From assembly GCA_029246505.1 (NCBI GenBank), contig JAQWNC010000024.1, forward strand, positions 1 to 35,376: a DNA stretch of 35,376 bases. The letters run 5' to 3'. The notes below the pieces were generated by a model. That model did not search any database and was not told where the DNA came from. It worked only from the letters and a program-made list of their open reading frames with translations. This DNA is from Arenicellaceae bacterium (GTDB lineage Bacteria > Pseudomonadota > Gammaproteobacteria > Arenicellales > Arenicellaceae). Below are positions 16,924 through 21,656 of the stretch, one piece after another. The stretch's first letter is position 1. Each line of letters begins with the position of its first letter. A program made the translations under genes and the position numbers.

Positions 16924-16976
16924 AGGCATTGTGATAGATTCTCGCATACGTGACCGGCGAAGGCATTGAGGGTAGC

Positions 16977-17603
16977 ATGAGATCAATTTTAGTTGTCAAT
17001 CCCAAAGGAGGGTGTGGCAAAACGACTATAGCGACTAATCTAGCTTCTTTTTATGCCGTGTGGGAGGTTCCTGTTGGGTTGATCGATCTCGATCCGCAGA
17101 AATCGTCTTCTGATTGGTTGAAAGTACGCCCCGAAACCGCTAGCACAATACAGGAATTTTCTGGGGTCAAGCGAAAAGGCGGTTTCCCCTCTGATTTAAA
17201 ACGGGTCATTTTCGATGCGCCGGCAAAAACTCAACTGGCATCGGTTACCAGGCTTATTGACATGGTTGATGTGGTTCTAATTCCAGTGCTACCGTCAGCG
17301 ATTGATATACGTGTGACAGCAAAGTTTATAGCTGATTTGTTGATAAAAGTTAAAGTACGTTACAAGCCGGTAAAAATAGCGGTAGTTGGAAATAGAATGC
17401 AAGCTAACTACAAGTCTTCAATGTTACTTGAAGATTTTTTGGAAAAGGTAGAAATTCCTTATATAGCCAAAATCAGGGCTTCACAAAAATATGTTCAGGC
17501 TGCTGATGCTGGTTTGGGTATTTTTGATATGACACCGTTTACCGTTAAGGTCGATGTGGAGGCTTGGAAACCATTAGTAAACTGGATTGAGCAAAAAGAC
17601 TAG
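16977..17603 (+). CDS. Orphan ParA/MinD-family ATPase
   Basis: The product has 208 residues. It has a deviant Walker A at 10-17 (KGGCGKTT, signature lysine K10), a Walker A' strand (LIDLDPQKSSSDW, D39) and a switch-II region (VIFDAPAKTQL, D80). The rest keeps the ParA fold, ending PLVNWIEQKD. It is shorter than chromosomal Soj/ParA, and no parB or parS-like repeat is nearby, so it resembles orphan ParA-like ATPases that position cellular cargo. The cargo is unknown. A GTG at 16950 would add nine residues, but GAGGG (16968-16972) sits properly before ATG 16977, which I choose. It follows ubiA by 53 bases and precedes a membrane hydroxylase-family gene by 71. Confidence 0.85.
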   Translation: MRSILVVNPKGGCGKTTIATNLASFYAVWEVPVGLIDLDPQKSSSDWLKVRPETASTIQEFSGVKRKGGFPSDLKRVIFDAPAKTQLASVTRLIDMVDVVLIPVLPSAIDIRVTAKFIADLLIKVKVRYKPVKIAVVGNRMQANYKSSMLLEDFLEKVEIPYIAKIRASQKYVQAADAGLGIFDMTPFTVKVDVEAWKPLVNWIEQKD

Positions 17604-18667: not shown

Positions 18668-19228
18668 CTACAATCGCGTTAAACAAAGTAGTATCGGAGA
18701 TTTTGGATTTTGACTTCGGGCCGGTTTTGCGCACCCAAAACGTTTGCTGTTCAAAGATTTAAACCATTTTACTACGGCCTTTGTCTCTTCAGCGCCAGTC
18801 GTGTGGCCCGGGTAACACAGAACGCTCATTTTTCCACCTATACATAGTAATTCACTACAGATTTCTAGTGCACCTAGCGTCGAAAGGGTTTGTGTGGTCC
18901 ATAGTTGATCTGACCCTGGAAGGTAGCCGAGATTGAACATGCAGGCACCTATATTACCCATACAGAATTCTGGAAGTACACTAAGTATGTCCGTATGGCT
19001 AATTTGGTGCAGTGAAGCGCGCCTGCTAAAATTCTCTGTAATCAAATATTGTTGGCTGGCTTGAATTGCGATAGCCTGAGTATCAAAAGCATAAACGTGC
19101 CCATCATCGCCGACTAGCCGCGCAAGAAAAATGGTGTCATTTCCATTTCCGCATGTCGCATCGATGGCTAGCGGGCTGATCAGGGGCGAAGCAGCGATAA
19201 AGTTTTGGGCCAGGGTGGTTAGCTGCAT
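18668..19228 (-). CDS. MnmM/YtqB-family SAM methyltransferase (putative tRNA nm5U methyltransferase)
   Basis: The product has 186 residues with a class I methyltransferase fold. The SAM-binding segment is IDATCGNGNDTIFLA (22-36), then YAFDTQ with the acidic ribose-binding residue. The family-specific FNLGYLPGSD (98-107) and CYPGHTTGAEE (138-148) follow. These last two identify the PF06962 'rRNA methylase' family, whose B. subtilis member YtqB was identified as MnmM, methylating nm5s2U to mnm5s2U at the tRNA wobble position. It lies 38 bases downstream of an MnmC-oxidase-like gene on the same strand, which supports the tRNA role. Function in this organism is inferred. No ribosome site is evident before ATG 19228. 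Confidence 0.82.
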   Translation of the reverse strand: MQLTTLAQNFIAASPLISPLAIDATCGNGNDTIFLARLVGDDGHVYAFDTQAIAIQASQQYLITENFSRRASLHQISHTDILSVLPEFCMGNIGACMFNLGYLPGSDQLWTTQTLSTLGALEICSELLCIGGKMSVLCYPGHTTGAEETKAVVKWFKSLNSKRFGCAKPARSQNPKSPILLCLTRL

Positions 19229-19266
19229 GGACTATATATCTAATGTTAAAGATTAGGCTATCGATA

Positions 19267-20325
19267 TTAGTTCGACAGCAGCTGTTCGAGCCTTGCTTGG
19301 TCATGGTTATTTCGAGCAAACAATAGCTGATCAGCAAATGTTATCGCGGCCCGCGGAATGTGAAGGGAGCCTTTACCTCCAAAGCCGTTAAAAATGCCCA
19401 CCTGAGGATAAGATGGGTGTATGCCAATGAATGGTTTTCGGTCGACGGTCGCCGGGCGTATGCCCGCATATTGTTTGATTATTTGGGCCTTCTGAATTGA
19501 AGGGAGGTTTGTTACGTGACGTTTACGCGCTAATGTAAGGCTTTCAAGGAGTAGGTCGCGACCCTCGATGTCTGGATTCAGATGTTGGTAGTTACGTTCA
19601 GTGGTGGCACCCAGCCATCGCTCGGTACCGGTTTGCATTTCCCACTGCCCCCAATTTGAGAGGCTCGGTTGTGTATATGGTTGGTGAAGTTTAAGTAGCT
19701 GTCCTTTGCTAAGGTTGAACGGTAGGGCGTTGAACCATGGATTGAGAATCCCACGCCAGCCTTCGCAAAAAATAACTTTTTTGGATTGAAAATCACGCCA
19801 TCGAATATTTTCACAACCAATAACAAGTTCGTCGTAATCTAATTGCGTTGTTATTCGTGAATTTGTTGAGTCAAGAATATTATGGATCAGCCGGCAGGTC
19901 GTCTGTATGTCGAGCCTGAAAGTATTGCTAATAATTAGCGAATTTTCTCGGTTGGTGTCGGGCAAACTGTTTTCCGATGCGAATCGCTGGAGTCCGGGTA
20001 TGGTGCGTAGCTTGGGTAACGCCTGACTTTGTAGAGTATTGAGAAACCTGGTCTGAGGTAATTCCACTAATATTTTGTACCCCGTCAATTGTTCAAGTAC
20101 TAGGGCAAACTTATTAAGTGCTGCCTGTTTATCATCAAAATCAGGCTCTAACACTAAGCGCTTGCCAGAAATAGGGTTGGCGATTCCTGCGGCAATTGGG
20201 GAGGCGGCGCCAGCTAATGGCCGGTCAACTAATAATAGGTTCGTATCGCGATTTAGTAGCTCAAGTGCAAGTACGCAGCCAGCCAAGCCGCCACCTACAA
20301 TTATAAAATCGATGTTGTGATACAT
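19267..20325 (-). CDS. FAD-dependent oxidoreductase, candidate stand-alone MnmC oxidase domain
   Basis: This 352-residue protein belongs to the DAO superfamily. It has an N-terminal dinucleotide fold (FIIVGGGLAGCVLALELL, 8-25), an acidic second-strand end (LLVDRPLAG), and AASPIAAGIANPISGKR. Near the C-terminus are YAGIRPATVDRKPFIG and FNGFGGKGSLHIP, the second FAD-contact motif. In E. coli the oxidase half of MnmC converts cmnm5U to nm5U and is fused to a methyltransferase half. Here no methyltransferase is fused, but one of the MnmM family is encoded directly downstream. That neighbourhood is the main reason for the tRNA call. ThiO/DadA-like amine oxidases are the alternative. Its start lies 29 bases from a divergent gene. 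Confidence 0.72.
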   Translation of the reverse strand: MYHNIDFIIVGGGLAGCVLALELLNRDTNLLLVDRPLAGAASPIAAGIANPISGKRLVLEPDFDDKQAALNKFALVLEQLTGYKILVELPQTRFLNTLQSQALPKLRTIPGLQRFASENSLPDTNRENSLIISNTFRLDIQTTCRLIHNILDSTNSRITTQLDYDELVIGCENIRWRDFQSKKVIFCEGWRGILNPWFNALPFNLSKGQLLKLHQPYTQPSLSNWGQWEMQTGTERWLGATTERNYQHLNPDIEGRDLLLESLTLARKRHVTNLPSIQKAQIIKQYAGIRPATVDRKPFIGIHPSYPQVGIFNGFGGKGSLHIPRAAITFADQLLFARNNHDQARLEQLLSN

Positions 20326-20354: not shown

Positions 20355-21656
20355 ATGGATATTACAAATGAAAAAAGCAAAGTATCGAAACAGCGTTTTT
20401 TGCTTTTTAAACGCCGTTTCGGGCCGTTATTTGTGACGCAATTCTTAGGAGCATTTAACGATAATTTTTTTAAGAATGCACTAATCGTGCTGTTTACTTT
20501 TGTAATGGCGAGTAGCCTGGGTGAAACTTTGGTGCTTATTAATCTTGCCAGTGCCTTGTTCATTTTGCCGTATTTTTTATTTTCGCCGATTGCTGGTCAG
20601 TTGGCCGATAAGTATGAGAAATCTTCATTAATACAAACCATTAAGCTAAGTGAAATTGTCATTATGGCCTTGGCGGCGTTGGCTCTATGGCTCCAGTCGG
20701 TGTATGCAATGTTATTTGTGTTATTTCTACTCGGTACACAATCGACTTTTTTTGGCCCCACTAAATATAGTTTGCTGCCTCAACACCTTAGTCGAGAGGA
20801 GCTATTGGACGGTAATGCCTACGTTGAGGGTGGGACGTTTTTAGCTATTTTAGTGGGCACTCTATTTGGTGGTTGGTTAGCTGCGGATTCGTCGACACGT
20901 GAGTGGCTCGGTTACGGGGGTGTTTTTATTGCATTTATTGGTTGGCTTGCCAGCAAAGGAATTCCGGAGGCCCCTTCCGCTGCTGCAAATCTTAAGCTGG
21001 ACTGGAATTTATATCGAGGCATTGTCGGTTTGCTATCAGAAGTAAGATTGGCGGGGGTTAGCAGCATAATTGCTTATATATCGTGGTTTTGGTTGCTTGG
21101 GGCGTTATTCCTTACGCAGTTGGCTCCTTGGGCGCAAGATATACTTAAAGCAGATGGTCGGCTTGCAACTTTGTTGATTGCAATTTTTTCGATTGGCATC
21201 GCTATTGGATCTATTTGGTGTTCCTATCTTGCAGAAAAGCACTCTAGTTTGAAGGTCGCCATTGCCGGTGGTTTTGGTATGAGCGTGTTTACGTTGTGGA
21301 TGGCACTAATACCCGAACAAACCAGTGCTATAGACAGCATCCGAATGTTGCCTAAATCTTTGGTGGGATGGTCAGTAATTATAAGTTTAGGGGGATTGTC
21401 CGTTTGTGCTGGACTGTATACGGTACCGCTATATACCTTATTACAGTCCGATAGTCCGGAACGTGTTCGCTCACGAGTAATTGCGGCGCTAAATGTTACT
21501 AATTCGATTTATATATTTGGAGGATCCATATTGGCGGTAGGCTTGCTTTCAGTTGGTTTGTCAATCTCGATGTTATTTGGGCTTCTCGGTTTTATCAATT
21601 TTGTCGTTATGATAATGCTCCAGGGCCATGCGGCCGGCCGGGTACTGCGTAATTGA
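20355..21656 (+). CDS. LplT-like MFS transporter
   Basis: The product has 433 residues and about 12 membrane helices. The N-terminal FVTQFLGAFNDNFFKNALIV (27-46) and SPIAGQLADKYEK match LplT and the MFS module fused to acyltransferases in Aas-like proteins. LplT flips lysophospholipids across the inner membrane for re-acylation. The partner acyltransferase/acyl-ACP synthetase domain (Aas) is neither fused nor adjacent here, so the substrate is uncertain. A central acidic/positive loop follows helix 6 (LKLDWNLYRG). The last 29 bases overlap tag, suggesting coupled translation. Confidence 0.85.
   Translation: MDITNEKSKVSKQRFLLFKRRFGPLFVTQFLGAFNDNFFKNALIVLFTFVMASSLGETLVLINLASALFILPYFLFSPIAGQLADKYEKSSLIQTIKLSEIVIMALAALALWLQSVYAMLFVLFLLGTQSTFFGPTKYSLLPQHLSREELLDGNAYVEGGTFLAILVGTLFGGWLAADSSTREWLGYGGVFIAFIGWLASKGIPEAPSAAANLKLDWNLYRGIVGLLSEVRLAGVSSIIAYISWFWLLGALFLTQLAPWAQDILKADGRLATLLIAIFSIGIAIGSIWCSYLAEKHSSLKVAIAGGFGMSVFTLWMALIPEQTSAIDSIRMLPKSLVGWSVIISLGGLSVCAGLYTVPLYTLLQSDSPERVRSRVIAALNVTNSIYIFGGSILAVGLLSVGLSISMLFGLLGFINFVVMIMLQGHAAGRVLRN

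Follow-up and report, generated by a model that had tools for sequence, protein, structure and literature searches.

The modification of the wobble uridine to 5-methylaminomethyl-(2-thio)uridine, or mnm5(s2)U34, in transfer RNA (tRNA) tunes how A- and G-ending codons are decoded. In Escherichia coli, the 5-carboxymethylaminomethyl (cmnm5) form is converted to the 5-aminomethyl (nm5) form and then to the mnm5 form by a single bifunctional protein, MnmC (b2324), which combines a flavin adenine dinucleotide (FAD)-dependent oxidase of the glycine oxidase fold (MnmC1) with an S-adenosylmethionine (SAM)-dependent methyltransferase (MnmC2). Unfused MnmC1 and MnmC2 are reportedly known as well, the MnmC2 of Aquifex being one example, and in Gram-positive bacteria the methyltransferase MnmM (YtqB) is said to be partnered by the radical-SAM protein YtqA/MnmL. 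A title on Aquifex MnmC2 stands among the references of PMC9976899, unfused MnmC orthologues are mentioned in PMC3648344, and MnmL (YtqA) is cited in PMC12548931 and PMC12245174. In its remarks on this point, the 2023 paper on MnmM left the oxidase of MnmM organisms unknown (PMC9976899). Here we describe a contig of 35,376 nucleotides from an Arenicellaceae bacterium of the Gammaproteobacteria (JAQWNC010000024.1, assembly GCA_029246505.1; hereafter the window, meaning this whole stretch) that contains a FAD-dependent oxidase gene, which we call OX, next to an mnmM gene. This pair very probably replaces the bifunctional MnmC, with OX oxidising cmnm5(s2)U34 to nm5(s2)U34 and MnmM methylating the product.

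Both genes lie on the minus strand. OX is the first (19267-20325) and encodes, from an ATG start, a 352-residue protein of the DAO fold (PF01266), the proposed cmnm5(s2)U34 oxidase. After a spacer of 38 bases (19229-19266) it is followed by mnmM (18668-19228), whose 186-residue product, also from an ATG start, is assigned to the SAM-dependent tRNA nm5(s2)U34 methyltransferase family by the NF053511 and PF06962 models and by alignment to solved YtqB/MnmM chains. Both open reading frames (ORFs) are located where the original prediction, made from the letters of the window, had placed an oxidase 38 bases upstream of a PF06962 methyltransferase on one strand. The pair resembles E. coli MnmC in that a glycine-oxidase-fold FAD oxidase and a SAM-dependent methyltransferase are proposed to carry out the same two steps at U34, but differs in that it consists of two ORFs, its methylase is MnmM rather than MnmC2, and OX scores below the MnmC1 cut-off. 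The two activities are also unfused in stand-alone MnmC1 and MnmC2; OX, however, forms a clade separate from fused and unfused MnmC1 alike, and its partner is again MnmM rather than MnmC2. With respect to the enzyme of B. subtilis and S. aureus, the MnmM of the window belongs to the same family by the curated model and keeps most key residues, whereas its partner is a flavoprotein oxidase. TIGR01212, which we take to be the family of YtqA/MnmL, gave no match in the window genome (G000) at E ≤ 1e-40.

The remainder of this genome, a 2.64 Mb assembly of 30 contigs that is 97.5% complete, agrees with the proposal that the pair stands in for a fused MnmC. MnmG (903 bits) and MnmE (361 bits) are both present, no protein of the genome reached the MnmC1 cut-off (TIGR03197, 174.2 bits; 10 weak matches, with OX itself fourth), and MnmC2 (PF05430) had no match at E ≤ 0.001. 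With MnmC1, MnmC2 and TIGR01212 not found, OX alone of the oxidase families searched would be there to serve MnmM.

The two genes also tend to occur together. In a class set of 229 gammaproteobacterial genomes searched with the OX protein as query, 15 contained strong matches (E from 2.1e-242, the self-match, to 3.5e-21, the next match being at 1.4e-6) and 15 contained MnmM over cut-off. Both were found in 14, while G034 has only OX and G155 only MnmM; the co-occurrence that the original prediction proposed to test is seen in 14 of the 16 genomes having either gene (Fisher 2.7e-20, uncorrected for kinship). The 15 OX genomes span 12 families, and two families (f2 and f90) each contain one genome with both genes and another with neither. 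MnmC1 was over cut-off in 48 of the 229 genomes, none of which carries OX (one-sided p 0.026). For MnmC2, 70 genomes had a match of some kind; the 54 with E ≤ 1.9e-11 were counted as strong and the 16 weaker ones dropped, and neither OX nor MnmM was present in any of the 54 (one-sided p 0.015). At the PF05430 model's own cut-off of 22 bits there is one overlap between OX and MnmC2, a weak match of 23.6 bits in the OX genome G001. For MnmM and MnmC1, the single genome with both is G155 (p 0.14).

The genes are also closely linked. Of the 15 class loci, 13 (the window among them) have MnmM adjoining OX; in G079 it is on another contig, and in G034 none is over cut-off. When an alignment of the OX family was searched against 84,980 species genomes, 478 stretches matched and 453 relatives were obtained, the best 80 of which were analysed. 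These 80 come mostly from Methylococcales, along with Mariprofundaceae and other Zetaproteobacteria, Nitrosomonas, a metagenome-assembled genome (MAG) of Ectothiorhodospiraceae and two 'Bacteroidia' MAGs, and Methylomonas, Methylobacter and Nitrosomonas are cultured genera with OX. The system that the original prediction described for a gammaproteobacterium is not confined to this class. In 62 of the best 80 loci MnmM follows OX on the same strand at a distance of no more than 0.9 kb. Three of the remaining 18 loci end within 113 bases of OX, and whole-genome searches located MnmM elsewhere for 11; the loci do not all represent separate genomes, since L077, one of these 11, shares its MAG with the paired locus L081. 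A MAG titled Methylomonas (G614, which holds L076) has two MnmM genes over cut-off (L225 and L237, at 212.5 and 147.2 bits), neither of them in the 7 kb stretch around its OX.

A second, phylum-wide search for OX covered 398 genomes and found it in 38, of which 37 belong to a single family; 30 loci were analysed. Taken together, the loci of the wide scan and of this search provide 81 unfused OX–MnmM pairs (not counting the window, and with some genomes entering twice). In every one of the 81, OX precedes MnmM on a common strand, and the two genes overlap in 70, the usual overlaps by a simple start-codon rule being 8, 10, 23 or 26 bases. Of the 30 phylum-wide loci, 21 carry OX and MnmM as separate genes on a common strand (the window and L222, where the genes are 1.1 kb apart, included), three are cut by contig ends, and six are fused. 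The zetaproteobacterial locus L124, from the wide scan, contains a single ORF of 572 codons in which an N-terminal OX is joined by a short linker to a C-terminal MnmM, the reverse of the domain order of MnmC; L210 has identical scores and an identical junction and was taken as one with it. In the two fusions scanned (P0001 and L201) the C-terminal part is over the cut-off of the MnmM model. When the fused state is mapped on a tree of 35 OX domains, two changes are required, both forced by supported branches and constant across the bootstrap range, and there have apparently been two separate OX–MnmM fusion events in Zetaproteobacteria. The 680-residue open frame at L022 was considered as a further fusion and ruled out, as it consists of two genes in different frames. 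The co-occurrence of OX and MnmM, the rarity of MnmC alongside OX, the overlap of the genes and their fusion argue for one pathway, and the unfused, two-gene counterpart of MnmC that the original prediction put forward is supported on these grounds, with the substrate of OX as its conjectural part.

The assignment of the second gene to the MnmM/YtqB family, read from the sequence at the outset, is well founded. The window protein exceeds the curated equivalog cut-off of NF053511 (166.1 versus 135 bits) and that of PF06962 (116.5 versus 22.7 bits), and aligns to solved YtqB/MnmM chains with a best E of 6.7e-28. In this alignment Asp31, in the GNGND motif at residues 27-31 (19136-19150, minus strand), occupies the position of D34 in B. 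subtilis MnmM. Within residues 99-142 (18803-18934, minus strand), Asn99, Tyr102, Tyr139 and His142 correspond to N101, Y104, Y141 and H144, with Gln108 at the place of K110. All five of the mapped residues D34, N101, Y104, Y141 and H144 are kept (K11 falls outside the mapping), and the activity of B. subtilis MnmM is described as nearly undetectable when any of these is mutated (PMC9976899). From orthology and these conserved residues we infer that the MnmM of the window would methylate nm5(s2)U34.

OX is a strong candidate for the preceding step, the oxidation of cmnm5. It is over the gathering cut-off of the DAO family (54.9 versus 27.9 bits) and far under those of MnmC1 (44.6 of 174.2 bits) and of the thiamine-route glycine oxidase ThiO (TIGR02352; 57.5 of 250.8 bits), and no model in an NCBIfam scan reached its cut-off. 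Alignments place an N-terminal dinucleotide-binding glycine motif, GGGLAG, at residues 11-16 (20278-20295, minus strand), and Arg290 together with a motif of MnmC1 type, D295 and G316-G317-K318, at residues 290-319 (RPATVDRKPFIG...FNGFGGKG; 19369-19458, minus strand). In 33 OX, 19 MnmC1 and 15 ThiO rows, numbered by the residues of the window OX, Arg290 is invariant (33/33, 19/19 and 15/15); its aligned counterpart in B. subtilis glycine oxidase is the AGLRP-motif Arg. D295 is present in all 33 OX rows and in 18/19 MnmC1 rows but in just 2/15 ThiO rows, and G316 in 33/33, 18/19 and 0/15, respectively. Residue 317 is S, A or G in every OX and MnmC1 row and R in 15/15 ThiO rows, such that residues 316-318 read G-[SAG]-[KRH] in OX and MnmC1 and mostly F/Y-R-N/Y/H in ThiO. 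OX accordingly matches the C-terminal motif R..[TS].D..P..G ... G.G[SA][KR]G of MnmC1, holds partly in common with bifunctional MnmC the elements R..T.D..P..G and G-x-G-[SA]-[KR]-G, and departs from the GH[FY]RNG motif of ThiO at residues 315-318.

The predicted structure of OX (predicted local distance difference test 89, predicted template modelling score 0.90) is nearest to glycine oxidases (Z 34.2), CmiS2 (33.2), iminodiacetate oxidase IdaA (31.6) and MnmC (31.1). Since these Z-scores are close (31-34), the comparison was given up as a means of telling glycine oxidase and MnmC1 apart and is used solely to place the fold. ThiO, CmiS2 and IdaA resemble OX in fold, over 325-337 residues, and oxidise glycine or N-substituted glycines, but are 15-20% identical to it; OX has the MnmC1-type motif in place of GHFRNG and occurs with MnmM. 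A plausible sequence of events would begin with MnmE and MnmG, which would put the carboxymethylaminomethyl group on C5 of U34 in certain tRNAs, a reaction known elsewhere and for which the genes are present. OX would then bind the modified anticodon, with Arg290 presumably holding the carboxylate of the N-carboxymethyl amine, a role that we assume by analogy with glycine oxidase. With FAD it would oxidise the C-alpha to N bond, and hydrolysis of the resulting imine would give glyoxylate and nm5(s2)U34, to which MnmM would transfer a methyl group from SAM to yield mnm5(s2)U34, the reaction shown for the B. subtilis family member. In the account given of it, CmiS2 is thought to strip N-carboxymethyl from an amine through an imine to give glyoxylic acid (PMC11284099), and N-carboxymethyl removal through an imine is the type of reaction proposed for MnmC1 on cmnm5U in a passage of PMC3648344. 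The same paper reports that glycine and sarcosine are not turned over to a significant extent by E. coli MnmC.

The descent of OX was examined in three trees. The first comprised 33 OX, 19 MnmC1, 15 ThiO and 17 other rows (the own/DAO rows L001, L002, L008 and L038 were too short once trimmed, and L001 and L008 were restored whole), and the second 40 OX rows, with ThiO row L158, the DadA row and own paralogues left out. The third, with 15 OX, 9 MnmC1, 8 ThiO and 3 outgroup rows, was used to compare topologies by the approximately unbiased test (p-AU). In all three OX forms one clade (support 99-100) and MnmC1 a separate one (98-100), and ThiO forms a clade without OX in the third (100/99). OX also stands apart from E. 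coli DadA, in keeping with the original prediction, which would have been undermined by a position among ThiO and DadA enzymes. A glycine-oxidase-fold clade of its own, coupled with a methylase of the MnmM rather than the MnmC2 family, points to the two steps of MnmC being carried out with a distinct oxidase and a different methylase.

The same trees bear on whether OX might instead be a fast-evolving orthologue of MnmC1 that split from MnmC2, with the methyltransferase alone replaced. This would leave the function that we propose for the pair unchanged and differ in descent, and we regard it as possible, if on the doubtful side. The C-terminal motif that is partly common to OX and MnmC1 fits such a history, as does the sister grouping of the two, which is the best topology in the 15-OX tree (87/70). 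However, this grouping reaches 49% in the 33-OX tree, and the OX–ThiO and MnmC1–ThiO sister topologies (p-AU 0.28 each) are not rejected, such that kinship of OX and MnmC1 is favoured by the trees without being significant. Moreover, OX lies far below the MnmC1 cut-off, and all 19 MnmC1 rows, fused and unfused, fall in a single clade that excludes OX (support 98-99 in the 33-OX and 40-OX trees).

Much less probable is that OX is a divergent ThiO-like glycine oxidase of the thiamine route, or another small-molecule amine oxidase, that lies beside mnmM by chance. Glycine oxidases are its best matches in the PDB by both sequence and fold, no protein of the window genome reaches the ThiO cut-off (the best scores 63.8 bits), and the topology with OX and ThiO as sisters was not rejected. 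Nonetheless, in a ThiO search of 75 class genomes, six of them OX genomes, a separate ThiO was over cut-off in five of those six (G001, G034, G043, G045 and G067; the sixth is the window genome). The position of OX outside the ThiO clade and its MnmC1-type motif where ThiO has GHFRNG also count against this explanation, and chance fails to account for the co-occurrence in 14 of 16 genomes, the 81 of 81 pairs on one strand, or the fusions. Least probable of all is that OX acts at U34 on another step, oxidising mnm5U or nm5U back or onward (demethylation, deamination) to regulate modification, for although its fold also includes N-demethylating enzymes such as sarcosine oxidase and dimethylglycine dehydrogenase, this would leave the cmnm5-to-nm5 step in the window genome without an enzyme from the families searched (MnmC1, TIGR01212), and MnmC1 is over cut-off in 0/15 OX genomes while OX has part of the MnmC1 motif.

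Several observations weigh against the replacement of MnmC by OX and MnmM. The window genes do not overlap, which makes this pair looser than most, and a weak terminator-like hairpin (19279-19257, minus strand) runs from the end of OX into the spacer. OX is ThiO-like rather than MnmC1-like at residues 56, 285 and 291, such that the MnmC-oxidase-like motif of the original prediction is upheld at D295 and residues 316-318 and is partial overall; fold and sequence place glycine oxidase slightly nearer to OX than MnmC, and OX as sister of ThiO was not rejected. The exclusion of MnmC is statistically modest, for MnmM versus MnmC1 in particular. Furthermore, we infer the substrate and reaction of OX, which we count on the same side. 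In MnmM, Gln108 takes the place of B. subtilis K110, which is described in PMC9976899 as a phosphate contact whose K110E mutant is inactive. This is no bar to membership, since the position varies within the family (Lys 88, His 8, Gln 4 and others 3 in a pattern count over 103 related ORFs).

The distribution of the genes raises further points of this kind. TIGR01212 has matches in 5 of the 15 OX genomes, one of them partial and below cut-off; E. coli, which has MnmC, is also over this cut-off, and either two routes may coexist or TIGR01212 may have another role in these genomes. Seven of the best 80 OX loci are in genomes without MnmM at E ≤ 1e-20, two of which have MnmC2. Finally, the one-contig genome G034 (L013/L192) has OX without an MnmM over cut-off and without MnmC2. 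Its wobble base might go no further than nm5(s2)U; alternatively, a methylase that escaped recognition may be at work.

The two genomes with MnmC2 are the Bacteroidia MAGs, L090 and L114. Their OX proteins are 60-62% identical to that of Methylobacter, and each has a stand-alone MnmC2 (210.7 and 213.5 bits; NCBI cut-off 136) and no MnmM in a whole-genome search at E ≤ 1e-20; among 20 OX genomes searched, MnmC2 was over cut-off in these two only. The fraction of guanine plus cytosine is 0.37-0.42 at their OX loci and 0.38-0.39 at their MnmC2 loci, as opposed to 0.48-0.50 in Methylobacter. Since the OX loci are in line with the hosts' own MnmC2 loci rather than with Methylobacter, it seems unlikely that methanotroph DNA was mis-binned, and in these two cases hosts that had an orphan MnmC2 appear to have acquired OX. 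For such orphans, the MnmM paper (PMC9976899) expected an unknown MnmC(o)-like enzyme. The converse arrangement is found once, in G155, where MnmM (158.5 bits) occurs without OX and alongside an MnmC1 protein (215.3 bits) with no detectable MnmC2 domain. In this 553-residue frame (L187:756-2414) the MnmC1 domain starts at residue 194 and the approximately 190 N-terminal residues match no MnmC2 model, and it is possibly a former bifunctional MnmC minus its methylase part. Few as they are, two and one, we read these cases as an exchange of partners and count them in favour of the proposed pathway.

A broader reading of the OX–MnmM pair is that OX is a second, separately recruited cmnm5U34 oxidase that together with MnmM rebuilt MnmC from non-orthologous parts, was fused to it twice in reverse order, and behaves as a mobile module that uses whichever nm5U34 methylase is available (MnmM in proteobacteria, MnmC2 in Bacteroidia). 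We consider this extended account evenly poised between right and wrong. OX provides a testable oxidase candidate for proteobacterial MnmM organisms, including the cultured Methylomonas, Methylobacter and Nitrosomonas. The OX–MnmM pair may offer a route other than that of the radical-SAM protein MnmL, and in it a bifunctional enzyme may have been assembled anew from different parts. Among the matches listed from openly licensed PMC papers, no title concerned this oxidase or its pairing with MnmM, which does not in itself show absence from print.

With regard to the surroundings of the pair, a promoter scan of the window found none, below the number in shuffled sequences, and a terminator scan found 4 against 2.1 expected. 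Divergent from OX and separated from it by 29 bases is a stand-alone gene for an LplT-like transporter of the major facilitator superfamily (20355-21656, plus strand), whose best NCBIfam match is to the N-terminal portion of PRK06814, a long acyltransferase model. In G143 (locus L010), which is of the same family as the window genome, the gene at this place continues into what appears by eye to be an acyltransferase part. On the other side, convergent to mnmM, lies a fatty acid hydroxylase gene (PF04116; 17675-18454, plus strand) with a weak likeness to the ornithine lipid hydroxylase OlsE (56.1 of 475 bits), and between this gene and ubiA is a gene for a ParA-family partition ATPase (16950-17603, plus strand; NF041546 106.7 bits, cut-off 180).

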